DNA from: Deltaproteobacteria bacterium
GTDB taxonomy: Bacteria > Desulfobacterota > Binatia > UBA9968
Assembly: GCA_016874755.1 (NCBI GenBank)
Contig: VGTH01000024.1
Span: 1-64,000 of the forward strand
Length of the DNA: 64,000 nucleotides
Reading direction: 5' to 3'
Part shown: positions 1,908 to 9,408 of the stretch, in pieces
Layout of the letters: each line of letters starts with the position of its first letter
Position numbering within the stretch: position 1 is the first letter of the stretch
Notes under the pieces: generated by a model
Database searches by the model: none
What the model was told of the DNA's origin: nothing
Seen by the model: only the letters and a program-made list of their open reading frames with translations
Program-made: the position numbers and the translations under genes

Positions 1908-2576
1908 TTAAGCATACGCGTCGTAGATGCCCTCGAACTTGGCGACTTTGAAGCGCACCATGTTGCGCGCCGCGACCCGAACGGCTTCCTTTTGCCGATC
2001 GGTGTTGGCGTTTTTCGCTATGGTCTCGGCGGCCATCGCCGTGTGTTCTTTGTCGACTTTGCCGTGCACCGCGAAAAACGTCCGCGCCCGGCTATCCATG
2101 CCGTAGTATTTCTCCAGCGCCGTGTCGAATTCCTCCGAATAGCGCTGCACCATGGTTTCGTTGACCAGCGCGCCGGCCCGGGTCTCCGCCTGTTCGCCGA
2201 CGAACATGCCGCGAATAATCGCTCCGGTGTGAGCGACGCACTCGTAGATCATGATGCCGTTCTCAAAATCCGCTTCCGTCAAACCCATCGCTAGACCGAA
2301 CCGCTTCATCAGTCCCGGGTGCGATTGCTCTTCGGTGAACAGCTCGACGAATTGATTGTACACCGCCTGGTTGCTGGCATTTTTCACCATGCAGTAGGCG
2401 AGCCCCTTGTTGATGACGTGATTGGATAAATAGTGCTGCAGCGCAAAACCGGTTATGCGCTTTTTCGACAATTTGCCGGCGCGCAGCTCGGTGAAGTAGC
2501 GCGTGTTCATGAGTTGTTCGACACCGGGATTGATAATCTCTTTCATGAGCGAATCGATGAAAGCTTGGTTTTCCAT
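1908..2576 (-). CDS. haem-oxygenase-like diiron protein (HDO / TenA-PqqC fold)
   Basis: This 222-residue, mostly helical protein has the pattern of the iron-containing redox enzyme family (haem-oxygenase-like diiron oxidases and oxygenases). Candidate metal ligands are visible: E82-E83 and H86 in FTEEQSHPG, acidic residues E140 and E149 in the middle helices, and the H-x3-D-x2-H motif at H171, D175 and H178 in VHGKVDKEHT. Family members perform oxidative cleavage or N-oxygenation on amino-acid-like substrates, but the substrate here is unknown. The ATG at 2576 has a GGAG site six bases upstream. It is divergent from the first alpha/beta-hydrolase and upstream of the MetE-like gene on the same strand. 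Confidence 0.75.
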   Translation of the reverse strand: MENQAFIDSLMKEIINPGVEQLMNTRYFTELRAGKLSKKRITGFALQHYLSNHVINKGLAYCMVKNASNQAVYNQFVELFTEEQSHPGLMKRFGLAMGLTEADFENGIMIYECVAHTGAIIRGMFVGEQAETRAGALVNETMVQRYSEEFDTALEKYYGMDSRARTFFAVHGKVDKEHTAMAAETIAKNANTDRQKEAVRVAARNMVRFKVAKFEGIYDAYA

Positions 2577-2671
2577 GGCGAACTCCTTCGAAAACTGATG
2601 GTTGCGCTATGAAGACTCGCAGAGCGGCAAAAAGGTGTCAAGCTTGGTTGTCAGGCCGAGGCAAATTTACG

Positions 2672-2701
2672 TTGACAGGCGGGTCAGACCCTCCCTATAG
2701 A
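2672..2701 (+). promoter_or_regulatory. sigma-70-type promoter for the first alpha/beta-hydrolase
   Basis: A perfect -35 TTGACA (2672-2677) is followed 18 bases later by TATAGA (2696-2701). It lies 31 bases ahead of the ATG at 2733, in the divergent gap with the diiron-type gene. Found by eye only. Confidence 0.55.
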
Positions 2702-2732
2702 TAGTCAGCGCGCCAGATTGACGGAGGGATCC

Positions 2733-3569
2733 ATGCCGAGAGTTAAGATCGATGACTTTGAGATCTACTACGAAAGTCAGGGCTCCGGTGAAGCCGTGCT
2801 CTTGGTTCCGCCCAACTGGTGGCCGTGCGCGACGTGGAACGTGCAAGTGGTGCCGACGCTGGCAATGAAATATTGCACGATCATTTATGATCAGCGCGGC
2901 ACAGGCAACAGCGACAAACCGAAGGACGGCTACACCGTCGCCCAGTTCGCGCAGGACGGCATTCAATTATTGACGAAACTTGGTGTGGCGAAATGTCATC
3001 TGGTTGGCTTCGCCATCGGCGGGCAGGTCGTCCAGGCGATGGCGATCGCGCGGCCCGATCTGGTGGCGAGCTTGACGATTTCAACGACCGGTTCGGGCTC
3101 CCGCGGTCTCGACGGCAAGCCGCGCGACGTCGGGCCGGAGGCGCTGAACGAAATCGCCAAGATCGGGTTCGAAAAATATATTCTCGAACATATCGACAAC
3201 GATCACATGGCGTACAATCCGGAGTATTATCACTCGCACCGCGAGCAGGCGGCGAGGTTGGCTAAAGCATTGTGGTCGGGACAGAGCACGGTGGAGCAAT
3301 ATCGCGTTCACGAGTTGGCGCGCTTGACTTGGGACACCTTGGCCGAGGCTCCAAAAGTGAAAGTGCCGACGCTGGTGCTGTGCGGCGCCGACGACGGCAT
3401 CCAGCGCCGCGGCAGCACGCCAGAGGCGGCGGCGCGGGCGCTGGCGCCGCTGATTCGCGGCGCGGAGCTGGCGTTGATACCCGGCGTGCGCCACATGACC
3501 TTTTGGGATGGCACCGGCGCGCTGGCAAAGCTGCAAGAATTCTTCGCGCGCCATCCGATTTCGCAGTAA
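2733..3569 (+). CDS. alpha/beta-hydrolase fold protein without nucleophile serine, paralogue 1
   Basis: This 278-residue protein has a clear alpha/beta-hydrolase core: RGTGNS loop (55-60), nucleophile-elbow strand (88-100), acid loop CGADD (218-222) and His loop RHMTFWDG (253-260). The elbow reads GFAIGG with Ala94 where family members carry Ser, Asp or Cys. The usual HG oxyanion motif is replaced by WWP (29-31). Acid D220/D221 and H254 remain. Classical ester hydrolysis is therefore unlikely; binding, lyase-like or cofactor-free redox roles are open. I chose the ATG at 2733, not an in-frame upstream TTG, because GGAGGGA lies just before it and the paralogue begins at the same residue. A strong promoter precedes it. 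Confidence 0.85.
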   Translation: MPRVKIDDFEIYYESQGSGEAVLLVPPNWWPCATWNVQVVPTLAMKYCTIIYDQRGTGNSDKPKDGYTVAQFAQDGIQLLTKLGVAKCHLVGFAIGGQVVQAMAIARPDLVASLTISTTGSGSRGLDGKPRDVGPEALNEIAKIGFEKYILEHIDNDHMAYNPEYYHSHREQAARLAKALWSGQSTVEQYRVHELARLTWDTLAEAPKVKVPTLVLCGADDGIQRRGSTPEAAARALAPLIRGAELALIPGVRHMTFWDGTGALAKLQEFFARHPISQ

Positions 3570-3578
3570 GAAGAAATT

Positions 3579-3659
3579 TAACCACAAGGTTCACGAAGGG
3601 TTCGTAGGGGCGACCGGCCGGTCGCCCTCACCTTCCGAACTTCGTGTGCTTCGTGGTGA
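3579..3659. repeat. dispersed CACGAAG palindromic element, copy 1
   Basis: The outer arms resemble ACCACAAGGTTCACGAAGG and, inverted, CTTCGTGTGCTTCGTGGTG. The centre holds a perfect 20-base palindrome, GGGCGACCGGCCGGTCGCCC, at 3608-3627. Related copies lie at 43488, 44759 and 50367. All four sit in gaps between genes. Confidence 0.7.
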
Positions 3660-3742
3660 TATTGGAATTCTTGCCCGCAACAAGCTCTGCGGCCTTTGTG
3701 TCTTTGCGCGAGATACTTCTGAAACGAGCAATGAGGTGAACT

Positions 3743-4579
3743 ATGCCAATAGCGAAGTTGGGCGATATCGAAGTGTACTACGAAGTCGCCGGCAGCGGTG
3801 AGCCGGTGTTGATGGTGCCGGCCTCTTGGTGGCCGTCGGATACCTGGAACGTGGGCGTGGTCGAATTTCTGTCCAAACGCTTCCAAACCATCATCCTCGA
3901 CTGCCGCGGCTGCGGCCGGAGCAGCGCGCCGAAGGACGGCTACACGGTGCCGCAATTCTCTAGAGATTGCATCGCGCTGTTGGCTCATCTCGGCGTCAGC
4001 CGCTGCCACGCCGTCGGCTTCGCGCTGGGCGGGCAGATTTTGCAGGCGATGGCCATCGAGCGGCCCGATCTCGTCGCAACGCTGACCATCGCGGCCTCAG
4101 GAGCGGGAGCAAAAACCTTGGGCGGCGGGCAGCGAAGCTTAGACCCTGGAACCGAGCAACAGATCGCCGCCGCCGGCTTCGAGCGCTACATCCGCAATTA
4201 CATCGAAAACGACACCATGGCGTTCAATCCGAAGTTTTACCGCGAGAACCCAAACACCGTCGCAGCATTAGCCAATGCCGTTTGGTCCGGCCAGAGCACG
4301 GTCGAAATCTTCCGCAAACACGAAGACGCGCGGCTGACGTGGGACACGCTCGGCAGCGCACCTAAAGTGAAAGTGCCGACGTTGATCATCTGCGGCGCCG
4401 ACGACGACGTCGCCCGCCGCGGCAGCACGCCCGTGGGAACGGCCAAGCGGTTGGCGGAGGTGACACCTGGCGCGGAGTTGTTCTTGATTCCGAACACCAA
4501 ACATATGACGTTTTGGGATGGGACCGGCGGAGTGAATGCGTTACAGGATTTTTTAGTGCGGCACGGCAAAACCAAGTGA
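3743..4579 (+). CDS. alpha/beta-hydrolase fold protein without nucleophile serine, paralogue 2
   Basis: This 278-residue protein aligns with paralogue 1 end to end without gaps, at about 58 percent identity by hand count. The same unusual features are kept: WWP at 29-31, elbow GFALGG with Ala94 in place of the nucleophile, acid loop CGADDD at 218 onward and H254 in KHMTFWDG. Keeping the substitutions while the rest diverges argues against simple decay. The ATG at 3743 follows GAGGTGA. It is on the same strand as paralogue 1 but separated by a repeat element, so it may have its own transcript. Activity is unknown; a role in the same pathway as its paralogues is inference. Confidence 0.85.
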   Translation: MPIAKLGDIEVYYEVAGSGEPVLMVPASWWPSDTWNVGVVEFLSKRFQTIILDCRGCGRSSAPKDGYTVPQFSRDCIALLAHLGVSRCHAVGFALGGQILQAMAIERPDLVATLTIAASGAGAKTLGGGQRSLDPGTEQQIAAAGFERYIRNYIENDTMAFNPKFYRENPNTVAALANAVWSGQSTVEIFRKHEDARLTWDTLGSAPKVKVPTLIICGADDDVARRGSTPVGTAKRLAEVTPGAELFLIPNTKHMTFWDGTGGVNALQDFLVRHGKTK

Positions 4580-4600
4580 TGGATCGAGAAAACCAGAGAG

Positions 4601-4938
4601 CCGGGCCGCGGCTCTGCGGAGAGTCCTGCCGGTCGCAGAAATATTTGCTATGACCGTGAAGCCTTGGAATCCAGAAAGGAGCACAAGCCAGGCAGTTGAG
4701 CCACCGATATGGCCGCTGCCATGGGAATCGATCTCTTGACGGAAGAGCGGTATCGAGATTTGCAAAAACTGGGGGCTTTCGACACAAAAACCTCGAGCTG
4801 GGTTAAGACGCCTGCTGCGATTAGAAAGCTTGGTGGCGCACTGTTCTGTGACCGCCGCTATGACACTGTTTCGTGTACCATAACGCCGCACAGTCGTACT
4901 ATGCGGCGAGGGATTTTCGTCGTGTGTTAAAAATTTAG
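4601..4938 (+). pseudogene. DUF4256 family protein, truncated and broken
   Basis: The plus strand reads SAESPAGRRNICYDREALES, then KEHKPGS, a TGA at 4697-4699, then DMAAAMGIDLLTEERYRDLQ and on through DTKTSSWVKTPAAIRKLGGA. This is the C-terminal part of the DUF4256 family. A one-base loss in the T run at 4869-4871 breaks the frame; correcting it gives VYHNAAQSYYAARDFRRVLK and a TAG at 4936-4938, the normal end. The N-terminal part is missing, since only about 20 bases separate it from the preceding hydrolase stop. The gene thus carries a 5-prime deletion, a nonsense codon and a frameshift. The function of the family is unknown. Confidence 0.65.
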
Positions 4939-4972
4939 CAGCCCAAGTCCTGGAGCAACAAAGAAGCCTCCC

Positions 4973-5260
4973 ATGAAGCGATCGCTCGCAGCGAAAATCA
5001 GAGCCGCCAATTCAGCGCTCATCGCAAATGGAAACTTGGATGCGGAGACCGAGTTCTTCGCACCGGACTATGTCGCTCATCTCACAAACCAGGACATGAC
5101 CGGCGGGCACGATGCGATCCGCAAAGTTCTCCGCATGTATCGGCGCGCGTTCCCGGATACCTTGGTTGATTATCGATCTCGCCGGGCGTCTCTTGCTGGC
5201 GAGGAAACGATGACTGATTGCGTGCCGCGAGAGCGACTGTTTTTCGCCGCCAAATTCTAA
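4973..5260 (+). pseudogene. SnoaL-like / ester cyclase family protein, probably truncated
   Basis: The 95-residue reading starts with an amphipathic helix and has LDAETEFFAPDYVAHL, GGHDAIRKVL and YRRAFPD, the pattern of SnoaL-like (NTF2-fold) proteins. These normally run to about 130-150 residues. After AFPD the expected strands (an EILV-like stretch, a W-x-R segment and a GFPATG-like turn) are absent in every frame I tried, so the second half is lost or replaced. The ATG at 4973 has only a weak ribosome site. It sits among other relics. It may be a transcribed fragment with no function. Confidence 0.45.
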
Positions 5261-5327
5261 GCCTGGAGATTCTAGTTGTGAGGAAACTGAGTCAAGGTTC
5301 TCCCGCCATTCAGAGAGTTGCCGACTA

Positions 5328-5630
5328 TTGGCGCTGCTGGTGATGGCCGCCCTGTTCATGTGCGCCGCCGCCGAGGCACAGACGAGGAAGGCCCGCGTCG
5401 CGCTGCGCATCGACGAAGCTACTGCGGCAAAGCTCTACGATTCGTCGCGTCCGATGCTGACAGCCGACGGCACGGTTAGCGGCGAGGTCGAACGGAAAAT
5501 GACCGGCTTCGTCCTTAAAACAGCCGGGGCGAAAGAACCACCGCCGCCCTCTGAAAAGCTCTATGACTTCGCCCTTGTGAAGAAAGCGCATCTCGCGCTA
5601 CAAGCTAGGGGCTGGCAGCCGGTGCCGTAG
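5328..5630 (+). CDS. short exported protein, possible internally deleted solute-binding protein
   Basis: About 100 residues. The start has a signal-peptide shape (LLVMAALFMCAAAEAQ) with a cleavage site after AEAQ. The rest contains RIDEATAAKLYDSSRPMLTA, DGTVSGEVERKM and a C-terminal LQARGWQPVP. That tail resembles the end of NMT1-like ABC receptors, and the stretch just after cleavage (TRKARVAL) resembles their beginning. It could therefore be a receptor that lost its middle; this is inference. The start is uncertain: a TTG at 5328, a GTG at 5337 and an ATG at 5340 are all in frame and none has a strong ribosome site. It overlaps the left edge of a repeat by two bases. Confidence 0.4.
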   Translation: MALLVMAALFMCAAAEAQTRKARVALRIDEATAAKLYDSSRPMLTADGTVSGEVERKMTGFVLKTAGAKEPPPPSEKLYDFALVKKAHLALQARGWQPVP

Positions 5631-5764
5631 CAGGCTGAAAAACTCGTAAGATAAGAATGGTTCGACAGGCTCACCATGAACGGATTTTATTCGGCGATTT
5701 CAACCTCCGATCCGTTCGCCCTGAGCTTAGTCGAAGGGCTCCGATGAATTTTTAGCAGCCTGCT
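5629..5764. repeat. dispersed GCTTAGTCGAAGGG palindromic element, copy 1
   Basis: Long imperfect inverted repeat. The outer arms are AGCAGGCTGAAAAACTC and GAATTTTTAGCAGCCTGCT. The inner arms are TTCGACAGGCTCACCATGAA and, inverted, TTCGCCCTGAGCTTAGTCGA. A second copy lies at 11648-11760 and an end fragment at 30547. Confidence 0.75.
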
Positions 5765-5788
5765 AGATTTACGCGAGGAAAACGACCT

Positions 5789-6619
5789 ATGCCGAAAGCT
5801 AACCTAGGCGACATTGAAATGTACTACGAGGAGAAAGGTCGAGGCGAGCCCGTTCTTCTCTGCCCTCCCTCCTGGTGGCCGAGCGATACGTGGAACGTCG
5901 CCGTCGTGCCGTTTCTTGCAAAAAAATATCGCACCGTGATTTTTGATTGCCGCGGCACCGGCCACAGCAGCAAGCCGGATCATGGCTACACGATCGACCA
6001 ATTCGCCAAGGACGGCGCAGGGCTGTTAGCGCATCTGAAGATCAACCGCTGCCACGCGGTTGGGTTCGCGCTTGGCGGACAGATCGCCCAGTCGCTGGCG
6101 ATTCAGCGGCCCGATCTGGTGGCGACGCTGACGATTGCCGCCGCGGGTGCCGGTGCCACGGCCACCGACGGCGGGCCGCGGGTTGTTCGCAGCACCGATG
6201 AAGAAGAGATTCGCGAGCATGGCTTTGAGAAATTCATTCGCGGCCACATCGAAAATACCCACATGGCGTTCAACGAAAAATTTTACAACGCGCATCCCGA
6301 AGCGGTGAAAGCGCTGTCCGATGCTTTGTGGCGACGACAGACCAGCCCGGAGCAGCACCGCTACCACTTTGACGCGCGGCGGACTTGGGATACTTTGGGC
6401 AACGCGCCGAAGGTGAAAGTGCCGACGTTGATTCTTTGTGGTGCCGGCGATGACGTGAATCGCGGCGGCAGCACGCCGGTGGGCACAGCGCGAAAATTAG
6501 GCGAGCTGGTTCCTGGTGCAGAACTGAACCTGGTGCCTAACGTGAAGCACATGACTTTTTGGGATGGCGAAGGGGCTTTGCATGCGCTGCGGGGTTTTCT
6601 CGGGCGTCACCCTATTTGA
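5789..6619 (+). CDS. alpha/beta-hydrolase fold protein without nucleophile serine, paralogue 3
   Basis: This 276-residue protein is the third member of the set. It has CPPSWWPSDTWN where HG is expected, DCRGTGHSS, an elbow GFALGG with Ala in place of the nucleophile, acid loop CGAGDD and His loop KHMTFWDGEG. The final acid loop differs slightly (AGDD for ADD). It is separated from paralogue 2 by two gene relics, a short exported ORF and a repeat, as expected if a tandem array was later interrupted. The ATG at 5789 lies behind a GAGGA site. All three copies lack the same residue, so the ancestral gene probably already lacked it. Confidence 0.85.
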   Translation: MPKANLGDIEMYYEEKGRGEPVLLCPPSWWPSDTWNVAVVPFLAKKYRTVIFDCRGTGHSSKPDHGYTIDQFAKDGAGLLAHLKINRCHAVGFALGGQIAQSLAIQRPDLVATLTIAAAGAGATATDGGPRVVRSTDEEEIREHGFEKFIRGHIENTHMAFNEKFYNAHPEAVKALSDALWRRQTSPEQHRYHFDARRTWDTLGNAPKVKVPTLILCGAGDDVNRGGSTPVGTARKLGELVPGAELNLVPNVKHMTFWDGEGALHALRGFLGRHPI

Positions 6620-6681
6620 TCTTAGCGACCGCGGTAAATCGCGCGGAGAGAATATGATGCTGAAGTCCTACGCTTCGAAAG

Positions 6682-6715
6682 TCCCCTCACCCTAGCTCTC
6701 CCAAAGGGCGAGGGA
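6682..6715. repeat. CCCTCACCC / GAGGG short inverted repeat, copy 1
   Basis: CCCCTCACCCTAGCTCTCCC followed by AAAGGGCGAGGG forms an imperfect hairpin. A related element lies at 9426-9458. It sits between paralogue 3 and the hydantoinase gene. Confidence 0.55.
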
Positions 6716-6774
6716 ACCGGATTGCTTCGGCGTCCACTAAAGTTTTAGGATTGGTATCTGCACGGAGTAAGACC

Positions 6775-8604
6775 ATGGAAGCCAAACCGCTGATCACCAG
6801 CGTTGACCCGATTACTTTCGAAATCCTTTCACATCGCCTCTATCAGATCGCCAAGGAGATGGGCACGGCGCTGGAGCGTGTCGGCGGCACGGTCAATACG
6901 ACGCAGATGCACGACTACATGGCTTCGCTCTATCTCGCCAACGGCGACGTCTTATCTGCCGGCGATTCCATGGGCTGGCATGTGGCCTGCGCCGGCTTTG
7001 CAGTGAAACGCATCATCGAGCGCTTCAGTGACAAGATTTATCCCGACGATATTTTTCTGCTCAACGATCCTTACCTCGCGGCGATTCATCAGTCGGATGT
7101 TTACTTAATTTCGCCGATTCACTTCCACGGTCGGCTGATCGGTTGGAGCGCGACGTTCGTCCACGTCATGGACATTGGCGCGCTGTCGCCTGGCGGCAAT
7201 TCGCCGGACGCCACGGAGATTTGCCATGAGGGCATTCGTATTCCCGGGATCAAGCTGGTCGAGCGCGGCGAGCTGAGAAAAGATTTATTCGACGCGTTTA
7301 TCAACATGACGCGCCAGCCGGTGATGGTCGGTCTCGATCTGAAATGCGAGATCGCCGCTAACAACGTTGCCAAGTCGCGCATGCAGACGCTCTACGAGCA
7401 GTTCGGACCTGAGCTGGTTACCGCCGTGTCGCAAGAGATGCTGAATTATTCCGAGGCGGTCGTGCGCCGGCGCATCGCTGAGATTCCCGACGGTAGCTGG
7501 AGCGACAGCGGCAGCATCAACGCCGGTGAAACTTGGAACGTGCATGTGAAATTGACCAAAAAAGGCGACGGTTTGTTGTTCGACTTTACCGGCAGCAGCG
7601 CCCAGGCGAAAAAGGGAATCAATCTGCCGTACCATGCCACCTTCGGCGCGTGCTACGAATCGATGCTCTGCACGCTAGCCTACGATTTGCCGAAGAATCA
7701 CGGCGCCCTCAGACCGATAGAAGTGATCGCGCCAACGGGCACGGTGGTCAATCCGACGCCGCCGGCGCCGGTATCGTTGAATACCACTTCCGGCGGCGCC
7801 ACGGTGAAGTTCGTCGCCAATTCAGCGATGATGCAGATGCTCGCCACCAGCGACAAATGGTCCGGCGAGGTGATGGCGCTTAACGCCGGCCATCGCCTAG
7901 CGCGCCACGCCGGCGTCAATCAGCATGGCAAGTACTACGTCTCGACACTGTCCGAGGGCGCCCTCGACGGCACCGGCGCGCGCTCCTACAAAGACGGCGA
8001 CGACACCGGGCGCGGCTTGAGCTGTCATAATATCGAATGGCTCGAAGCCAACTTTCCGCTACTCTATCTATTTCGCCGCAATACCATGGGCGGTGCTGGC
8101 GCGGGAAAATTCCGCGGCGGCACCGGCGGCGAATCGGCCCTGACTGTGCACGATGCGCCGCAGGGCAAAGTCAAAGGCGTCGCGCTGGGTGTCGCCGGCG
8201 TGCGCAACTCAGGCCAAGGCATGTTCGGTGGCTACCCCGGCGCGCCGAGTCTGCTCATGCTCACCGAAGGCGCGCGCGTTGAAGAGACCATTACAGCGCA
8301 GCAAGCGCCGGATCGTTTGGAAGAGCTCCGCGGCACCAGCAAACTTTTACCCTACTGCGAGTTCGACATCGCGAAAAATTCCATCCTCTACATGCGCATG
8401 TCGAGCGGCGGCGGCTACGGCGACCCGCTCGATCGCGAGCCGGAGCGGGTCTTGAGGGACGTCGAGAACGGTCTGGTGTCGCGCCAGGAAGCGCGCGAGG
8501 TTTACGGCGTGGTTATTGACGGCATGGAGCCGGTCTTGAACTTGGCGTCCACCGAGGGCACGCGCTCTGAATTCAAAAAGAAAAGATTGCAGGAACAGCC
8601 ATGA
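6775..8604 (+). CDS. hydantoinase B / oxoprolinase family protein
   Basis: This 609-residue protein belongs to the HyuB (hydantoinase_B) family. Diagnostic stretches include DPITFEILSHRLYQIAKEMG, FLLNDPY, GWSATFVHVMDIG, and the C-terminal glycine-rich RMSSGGGYGDPLDREPERV. The family acts with an ATP-using HyuA subunit on hydantoins, 5-oxoproline, acetone or acetophenone. No HyuA is present in the window. The ATG at 6775 follows GGAG; an in-frame TTG further upstream lacks support. The stop overlaps the next start (ATGA), so it is translationally coupled to a gamma-type zinc subunit. That pairing points to a carboxylase-like complex more than to a simple hydantoinase. Confidence 0.88.
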   Translation: MEAKPLITSVDPITFEILSHRLYQIAKEMGTALERVGGTVNTTQMHDYMASLYLANGDVLSAGDSMGWHVACAGFAVKRIIERFSDKIYPDDIFLLNDPYLAAIHQSDVYLISPIHFHGRLIGWSATFVHVMDIGALSPGGNSPDATEICHEGIRIPGIKLVERGELRKDLFDAFINMTRQPVMVGLDLKCEIAANNVAKSRMQTLYEQFGPELVTAVSQEMLNYSEAVVRRRIAEIPDGSWSDSGSINAGETWNVHVKLTKKGDGLLFDFTGSSAQAKKGINLPYHATFGACYESMLCTLAYDLPKNHGALRPIEVIAPTGTVVNPTPPAPVSLNTTSGGATVKFVANSAMMQMLATSDKWSGEVMALNAGHRLARHAGVNQHGKYYVSTLSEGALDGTGARSYKDGDDTGRGLSCHNIEWLEANFPLLYLFRRNTMGGAGAGKFRGGTGGESALTVHDAPQGKVKGVALGVAGVRNSGQGMFGGYPGAPSLLMLTEGARVEETITAQQAPDRLEELRGTSKLLPYCEFDIAKNSILYMRMSSGGGYGDPLDREPERVLRDVENGLVSRQEAREVYGVVIDGMEPVLNLASTEGTRSEFKKKRLQEQP

Positions 8605-8861
8605 ACCATCCGCTGCGAGAAAACATGGATATTGCGACCGTCGATGGCGCCGATTGGATACGCTGCACGCGCTGCCAACATCGCTACTGCCGAGCGGATC
8701 AAGACTGGCGCCAATTCGCCAAGGTCCGGCTTTTGCCGCCGACCCAGGCCGGTCAATTGATGTCGGTGTTGAGCGGCGACTATTTGCTGCGCCAGCACTA
8801 CTGCCCGTCGTGCGCCGTGTTGTTGGATACCGACTTTGTCGAGGAAAAGAAAAATGGCTGA
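8601..8861 (+). CDS. small zinc-ribbon subunit, acetone carboxylase gamma-like
   Basis: This 86-residue protein has two CxxC pairs (CTRC near residue 22 and CPSC near residue 68) with RLLPPTQAG and EE-rich ends between and after them. The layout matches the small gamma subunit family of acetone carboxylase-type enzymes, which binds zinc. It starts inside the hyuB stop and overlaps the next gene by eight bases, so the three genes form one operon. It probably supports the HyuB protein in a multisubunit enzyme. The substrate is unknown. Confidence 0.65.
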   Translation: MNHPLRENMDIATVDGADWIRCTRCQHRYCRADQDWRQFAKVRLLPPTQAGQLMSVLSGDYLLRQHYCPSCAVLLDTDFVEEKKNG

Positions 8862-9408
8862 CGAACAACCGAATCGGCCCGTGCCGGAGACGCTCGAGCT
8901 AGATCATCGCACGACCGCCATCGCCGTGTTGGATTTGAGCGTGCGCTGCGAAGACCCCAAAGAAGTTTGCTCGAAGCTGATGCAGCCGCTCGGTGAATTT
9001 CTCGAACGGGCGCGCAAAGCGGCGGTGCCGATTATTTACACGATTTCCGCCATGGCACTGGGGACGCCTCAGGGCGATGTGGCCGGGCCTTTGAAACGGC
9101 GCGAGAGCGAGCCGATTCTTTACCCCGACGCCTTCGACAAATTCATGGGCGGTGAGTTGAAGAAGGAGCTCGACAAGTGGAAGTGCCGCTCACTGGTGAT
9201 CGTCGGCTCAGCGACTAATTTTGCCGTATTGTACACGGCGACGACGGCGGCGCGGATTTTCAAATATGATGTCGTGATTCCGTTGGACGGCGTGAATGCC
9301 AAGCGAAATTACGAGCAAGCATATGCGATTCACCAGATGACGATCTTGCCGGCGTCGGCGCATAAGCAGTTTAGGTTTACCAAGTTGGCGATGGTGGAGT
9401 TTGAGTGA
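8854..9408 (+). CDS. isochorismatase-fold protein lacking the catalytic cysteine
   Basis: This 184-residue protein has the cysteine-hydrolase fold: first-strand Asp in AIAVLDLSV (D27), middle YTISAMALG, and the strand-loop VIVGSATNFAVLYTATTAA. In active members the loop reads GxxTNxCV; here the Cys position is Ala124. Asp27 is kept. Hydrolysis by the Asp-Lys-Cys triad is therefore not expected. The ATG at 8854 follows GAGGAAAAG; an in-frame TTG at 8836 is less likely. It is coupled to the gamma-like gene by overlap, so its product may be a structural or binding partner in the HyuB pathway. Confidence 0.75.
   Translation: MADEQPNRPVPETLELDHRTTAIAVLDLSVRCEDPKEVCSKLMQPLGEFLERARKAAVPIIYTISAMALGTPQGDVAGPLKRRESEPILYPDAFDKFMGGELKKELDKWKCRSLVIVGSATNFAVLYTATTAARIFKYDVVIPLDGVNAKRNYEQAYAIHQMTILPASAHKQFRFTKLAMVEFE

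Follow-up and report, generated by a model that had tools for sequence, protein, structure and literature searches.

What becomes of an alpha/beta-hydrolase that has lost its nucleophile? The question is raised by three genes, here named AB1, AB2 and AB3, that lie on the plus strand of a 64,000-nucleotide stretch of a Binatia genome (contig VGTH01000024.1, positions 1 to 64,000; hereafter, the window) and encode proteins of 278, 278 and 276 residues (2733-3569, 3743-4579 and 5789-6619, respectively). All three genes are intact and were assigned on the basis of open reading frame calls, Pfam matches, motifs and placement in a tree, to which a predicted structure was added for AB3. The proteins score above cut-off against Pfam alpha/beta-hydrolase models (Abhydrolase_1, E 5e-18 to 2.5e-22) and read GFA(I/L)GG in place of the GxSxG elbow of the fold. 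A coordinate check located the elbow motif at 3006-3023 in AB1 (GFAIGG) and at 4016-4033 and 6062-6079 in AB2 and AB3 (GFALGG), with the codon of Ala94, at the nucleophile elbow, at 3012-3014, 4022-4024 and 6068-6070. The same check placed the sequence WWP (residues 29-31) in the oxyanion loop (2817-2825, 3827-3835 and 5873-5881), Asp221, the acid after strand beta7, at 3393-3395, 4403-4405 and 6449-6451, and His254 with the tail HMTFWDG at 3492-3512, 4502-4522 and 6548-6568. A preliminary description of this DNA had reported these motifs and a hand-counted identity of about 58% between AB1 and AB2; both were borne out, the pairwise values being 57.9% (161/278 residues) for AB1/AB2, 63.4% for AB2/AB3 and 56.9% for AB1/AB3. 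AB1-AB3 belong to a real nucleophile-less branch of the alpha/beta-hydrolases, a variation on a known theme, and most likely do a different job from classical hydrolases. We somewhat favor the reading that they are enzymes in which a His-Asp pair would act as a general base and no acyl-enzyme would form, by analogy with the cofactor-free dioxygenases of the HOD type.

The altered site is common to the whole family. A profile search with the three AB1-AB3 sequences of 148 genomes of the class returned 27 gene copies in 22 genomes, which reduce to the 26 distinct rows used for conservation counts. Trp29, Trp30, Pro31, Gly92, Phe93, Ala94, Gly96, Gln98, Asp221, His254 and the entire HMTFWDG block are invariant in all 26, and this sharing of Ala94, WWP, Asp221 and His254 makes the site a family trait. 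Thus, none of the members has Ser, Cys or Asp at the elbow as a classical serine hydrolase would, and the acid after beta7 and histidine after beta8 of such enzymes are both present throughout. For comparison we took the 22 next homologues by score, a set that is not a random sample. These rows, from Ser-bearing sister families of Binatia (L004, L007, L088 and others), have Arg197 and Trp35 in common with the clade (22/22) and, unlike it, carry the elbow GHSMG(G/A)R with its serine (22/22) and no Trp at position 29, which is Gly in 13 and Ala in nine; at position 221, 21 rows have Asp and one has Glu, and at position 254, 21 have His and one has a gap. Ala94 and Trp29 are accordingly fixed together in 26/26 clade rows versus 0/22 next homologues. 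The preliminary description had regarded WWP as a replacement of the usual HG loop. That holds for Trp29, which is specific to the clade, but not for the two residues after it, since five of the 22 Ser homologues combine a GTGWP loop with a normal serine. HGWP loops are found in arylesterases and bromoperoxidases. As judged from the alignment, WP is therefore not itself unusual and part of the motif is older, the peculiar residue being the Trp that precedes it. Thr256, Ser228 and Thr229 are also invariant in the clade (26/26) but are not shared by most of the 22 Ser relatives; a nucleophile that has moved to one of these side chains, giving a rearranged triad, could explain their conservation, and we consider this very improbable.

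The Ala-bearing rows form one group in a 77-row maximum-likelihood tree, with a support of 100/100, a stem length of 1.05 and recovery in all 200 bootstrap trees, so that Ala and WWP do define a clade (26/26), a point on which the preliminary description had called for a family alignment. Ten of 84 distinct homologue rows, whose profile match spanned at most 180 residues, were left out of the alignment and tree; Ser is found in all 51 kept rows outside the Ala clade, a count that holds for kept rows only, as the elbow residue is Ala in two of the short rows (L015 and L019, from the window's own genome). Within the clade, AB1 groups with L087, from the sister species G009, and with L035; AB2 groups with L066_412 of G009, and AB3 with L066_1497 of G009 and L025. 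AB1, AB2 and AB3 thus belong to three different subclades and each is paired with a close relative of its own from G009, indicating that the duplications predate the split from that species, and all three old paralogues appear from the tree to have kept the altered site since before then. Nei-Gojobori estimates of the ratio of nonsynonymous to synonymous substitution rates (dN/dS) were obtained for 236 pairs with dS < 2, of which the 30 with lowest dS are reported; having branches in common, these pairs are not independent. Of the 27 closest pairs, 24 had a ratio of 0.09-0.16 and three a ratio of 0.17-0.30; the value was 0.34-0.36 in the next three pairs (rows 28-30, dS > 1) and 0.18-0.29 among the three window paralogues. 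All four alanine codons are used at Ala94 (GCC 13, GCG 7, GCT 5, GCA 1). Together with the low dN/dS, this shows purifying selection rather than decay, in line with the earlier suggestion that selection has kept the same altered site, and that site is an old family trait. If AB1-AB3 were instead dead paralogues heading for loss, the missing serine would be explained, and nothing further was found that speaks for such local decay; we reject it as hardly credible, given that the site is shared by 26/26 rows on a single supported branch, that dN/dS is low, and that none of the 27 gene copies carries an internal stop.

Homologues with a serine and a normal loop, which the preliminary description had said would point to local decay if close, are not close: the next homologues, all Ser-bearing, are ~30-34% identical to the clade, and the closest paralogues of AB1-AB3 within their own genome 31-34%. 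In the profile search, the lowest clade member scored 430 bits and the next homologue 189 bits. All hosts belong to a single order, split between the GTDB families f1 (14/25 genomes) and f3 (8/9 listed genomes). In a phylum-level draw of 395 genomes, with at most six candidates scored per genome, the family was found only in the window's own genome. When 84,980 species genomes were scanned for two conserved peptides, a screen blind to members lacking both, 40 loci were confirmed, 17 of them at 57-82% identity and 23 at 26-41%; the 17 close loci are labelled Binatia, 'Deltaproteobacteria' or, once, Syntrophobacter. The last of these, L035 (CAMDBU010000145.1, Syntrophobacter sp. SbD2), has a counterpart, G011:C145, in the window's Binatia genus, and its label looks wrong. 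The nucleophile-less family is thus lineage-specific, found here in one order of Binatia, and no paper on it was recognized in open-licence PMC searches.

The structure of AB3 was predicted with AlphaFold2 from a 33-row alignment that omitted L043, whose stretch carries a stop codon, as well as L057, further distant loci and the second L030 copy. The model has a mean predicted local distance difference test score (pLDDT) of 92.9 and a predicted template-modelling score of 0.92; in ten-residue blocks, pLDDT is 97 at the elbow, 93-94 in the loop and 91 around His254. Ala94 follows strand 88-93 and precedes helix 95-106, at the place of the nucleophile in relatives, and strands 213-218 and 245-249 precede Asp221 and His254. 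With confidence, the predicted fold is a canonical alpha/beta-hydrolase fold with a canonical elbow, and this and the Pfam Abhydrolase score place the family in the superfamily. The top fold matches are the esterases 8v16_A (Z 35.0, root-mean-square deviation 2.1, 260 residues aligned) and 6eb3_A (34.8, 2.1, 262), together with the enol-lactonase 2xua_H (32.4, 2.3, 255). These matches are consistent with proteins that are still hydrolases, in which a His-activated water would attack an activated substrate, for example an enol lactone, vinyl ether or beta-diketone; so is the best named profile, that of the PcaD enol-lactonase, though it is matched far below its cut-off (97-112 against 255.85 bits). 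As the oxyanion loop has been rebuilt with Trp, we regard such general-base hydrolysis as distinctly unlikely.

How, then, might these proteins work? That the nucleophile is gone speaks against the acyl-enzyme route of classical hydrolases; the preliminary description's proposal of a non-hydrolytic function nevertheless goes beyond the evidence, since the conserved His-Asp pair could still activate water. The kept pair and the lost nucleophile together point to general-base chemistry. We infer that the family dropped the covalent nucleophile and kept His254-Asp221 as a general base, with His254 deprotonating the substrate or activating water, and that Ala94 and the Trp29-Trp30 loop would make a more hydrophobic pocket of what was once the oxyanion site. 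The reaction would run without an acyl-enzyme, the likeliest types being a lyase-type cleavage of a C-C or C-heteroatom bond or, by analogy with HOD-type enzymes, a step that depends on O2. A review passage (PMC11878206) records that carboxy lyases lack the serine. Alternatively, the old pocket may serve without catalysis, the proteins being pseudoenzymes that bind a ligand or partner as a sensor, a carrier or a regulator of neighboring transport or 2-oxoacid dehydrogenase genes. Such a role would fit the lost nucleophile, the bulky Trp in place of Gly or Ala beside the oxyanion site in 26/26 rows and the transporter genes often adjacent to the family; passages of PMC11878206 also describe inactive members of the fold. 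Against it, Asp221, His254 and the whole HMTFWDG block have not varied in any of the 26 rows, and the dyad is kept in all three old paralogues. An enzyme is favored because a non-catalytic protein need not keep the dyad alongside Ala94; the purifying selection, the joint fixation of Ala94 and Trp29 on one branch, the confident model of elbow and loop, the HOD precedent and the frequent importer genes also count in its favor, and we hold the pseudoenzyme account to be rather unlikely.

Gene neighborhoods were mapped at one locus in each of the 22 genomes, by profile in 20 stretches and the window and by eye plus tblastn in L037; as all f3 genomes come from one genus, these loci are not independent of each other. 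In f3, the gene of an ATP-binding cassette (ABC) ATPase lies within ~30 bases downstream of the family gene in seven of eight loci, the eighth (L037) having a hydantoinase A gene there. Further along the same strand, six of the seven carry genes for a luciferase-like monooxygenase, an ornithine-cyclodeaminase-like protein, a solute-binding protein and a permease, whereas the sequence of L116, the remaining one, stops in the cyclodeaminase gene. Of the 13 f1 loci besides the window, seven have a solute-binding protein gene adjoining the family gene and five have genes for pyruvate-dehydrogenase-like E1 alpha and beta subunits, four of these among the former seven. Overall, an ABC importer gene adjoins the family gene in 14/22 loci (15 counting an ATPase fragment in L104), and an NMT1-type binding protein is adjacent in L107 and L120. 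Neither kind of gene stands next to the family in the window, L113, L121, L122 (which ends at the family gene) or L037. The importers of f1 and f3 are 42-49% identical in their ATPases, 33-34% in their permeases and 24-33% in their binding proteins, and by these values are related but not close. Their best scores are to 2-aminoethylphosphonate-type models, all below cut-offs. The substrate may perhaps be a small organic compound brought in by such an importer, a suggestion to which we give low weight in view of the window's own genome, described next.

Several observations weigh against the reading of AB1-AB3 as His-Asp general-base enzymes fed by an importer. The block around Asp221 scores lower in the AB3 model (83) than the rest of the site. 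Eight of the 22 genomes, the window's among them, lack the adjacent importer gene seen in the other 14, and the window's genome has no close relative of the E1 alpha (33%) or binding protein (35%) found beside it elsewhere. One solute-binding protein has 100 matches in that genome (G000, 5.56 Mb), which amounts to a greatly expanded set of uptake receptors, so that adjacency says little about substrate. Retention of His and Asp is also compatible with a binding protein. Finally, the acid follows strand beta6 in HOD and its relatives and beta7 here, which makes HOD a precedent of mechanism only.

In the window itself, the family is surrounded by genes for haem-oxygenase-like, MetE-like, hydantoinase B, isochorismatase-like and NMT1 proteins. 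The MetE-like and haem-oxygenase-like genes (654-2576) are divergent from AB1, and the same pair is found near the family in G009 (L105) and G008 (L107). Hydantoinase genes lie beside a family member in two genomes (HyuB, window 6751-8601; HyuA and partial HyuB, L037 886-2952), and the 36 further stretches searched, which overlap in many cases, gave no match. The gap between AB2 and AB3 holds a SnoaL-like open reading frame of 95 residues (4973-5260) that looks truncated, its match covering about half of the Pfam model; a search of the gap for importer or E1 remnants returned none beyond one weak NMT1-type match (31% over 51 residues). A scan of 2500-6800 gave four promoter-like and six terminator-like signals (shuffle means 1.5 and 5.0, respectively) and was not used.

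Two further families of this bacterial lineage show alanine in place of a nucleophile. The isochorismatase-like protein encoded at 8836-9405 of the window has Ala (NFAV) at what we take to be the position of the catalytic Cys; its Protein Data Bank match 5hwg reads FAV where 5ha8 reads FCV. Among its relatives in the GTDB family, Ala is present in 9/9 that align fully there (L145 and L146 are partial), with the presumed catalytic Asp and Lys kept. It represents a second nucleophile-less family of hydrolase type in the same stretch. L015 (G000:C70:2507-3310) and L019/L164 (G000:C35:23741-24505) belong to a second alpha/beta-hydrolase family with an Ala elbow, of motif G/A-V-A-GGG or SAAGG. Ala is present in all 20 distinct rows that span the elbow, and His and Asp are retained wherever the rows reach them; this family is separate from that of AB1-AB3.

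If the general-base reading of AB1-AB3 is true, the family would represent another, separately evolved case of a serine-hydrolase-like fold turned into an enzyme without a nucleophile, and 'alpha/beta hydrolase' annotations in Binatia can mislead on mechanism. Its 26 distinct members, with Ser relatives in the same genomes, offer a natural series on how a covalent hydrolase changes its role. Among known systems, PcaD (TIGR02427) is the top NCBIfam model for AB1-AB3 and is matched in all 20 members scanned; membership among the 3-oxoadipate enol-lactonases was rejected on the scores given above, and a PcaD sequence fetched for comparison has Ser at the nucleophile position, unlike the clade. 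The metagenomic esterase Est1 (6eb3, 8v16), the closest solved structure by sequence (E 1e-31) as well as by fold, likewise differs in having GVSMGG with its serine and no WW loop.

The HOD family offers the best parallel in mechanism that we found on this fold. According to passages of PMC10548524, cofactor-free dioxygenases of the alpha/beta-hydrolase fold use a His-Asp pair to deprotonate the substrate and can dispense with the nucleophile, its position being taken by Ala in AqdC and in a variety of organisms; the S101A variant of HOD keeps its kcat with a 60-fold increase in KM. We compared five genes of this family, namely HOD and Rhodococcus AqdC1 (from plasmid records) and three of 31 records of HOD relatives. 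Ser occupies the nucleophile position in HOD (SHSHGG) and AqdC1 (SASHGG, with an Ala one residue earlier) and Ala in the three relatives, from Prescottella, Nocardia and Rahnella plasmids. Like the clade, then, the HOD family combines the fold and a His base with a dispensable nucleophile (Ser in two and Ala in three of five rows), features to which Ala94 and His254 would correspond, and it also has a Trp in the oxyanion loop (GWC/GWG, 5/5). In contrast, HOD and AqdC1 carry their acid in IMDWLM and VLDWLM, where the clade has no Asp or Glu; they are distant in sequence (26.6 bits) and occupy a branch of their own in the tree (length 3.2), and HOD is not among the 50 fold matches listed for the AB3 model. 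Membership in the HOD/AqdC family was rejected on acid position and tree. The nucleophile-less family may thus work like the HOD-type dioxygenases but is not one of them; we tentatively entertain, as a possibility short of even chances, that it comprises lineage-specific, cofactor-free and nucleophile-free enzymes that arose independently of HOD, with the acid after beta7 rather than beta6, and carry out a reaction new to the fold.

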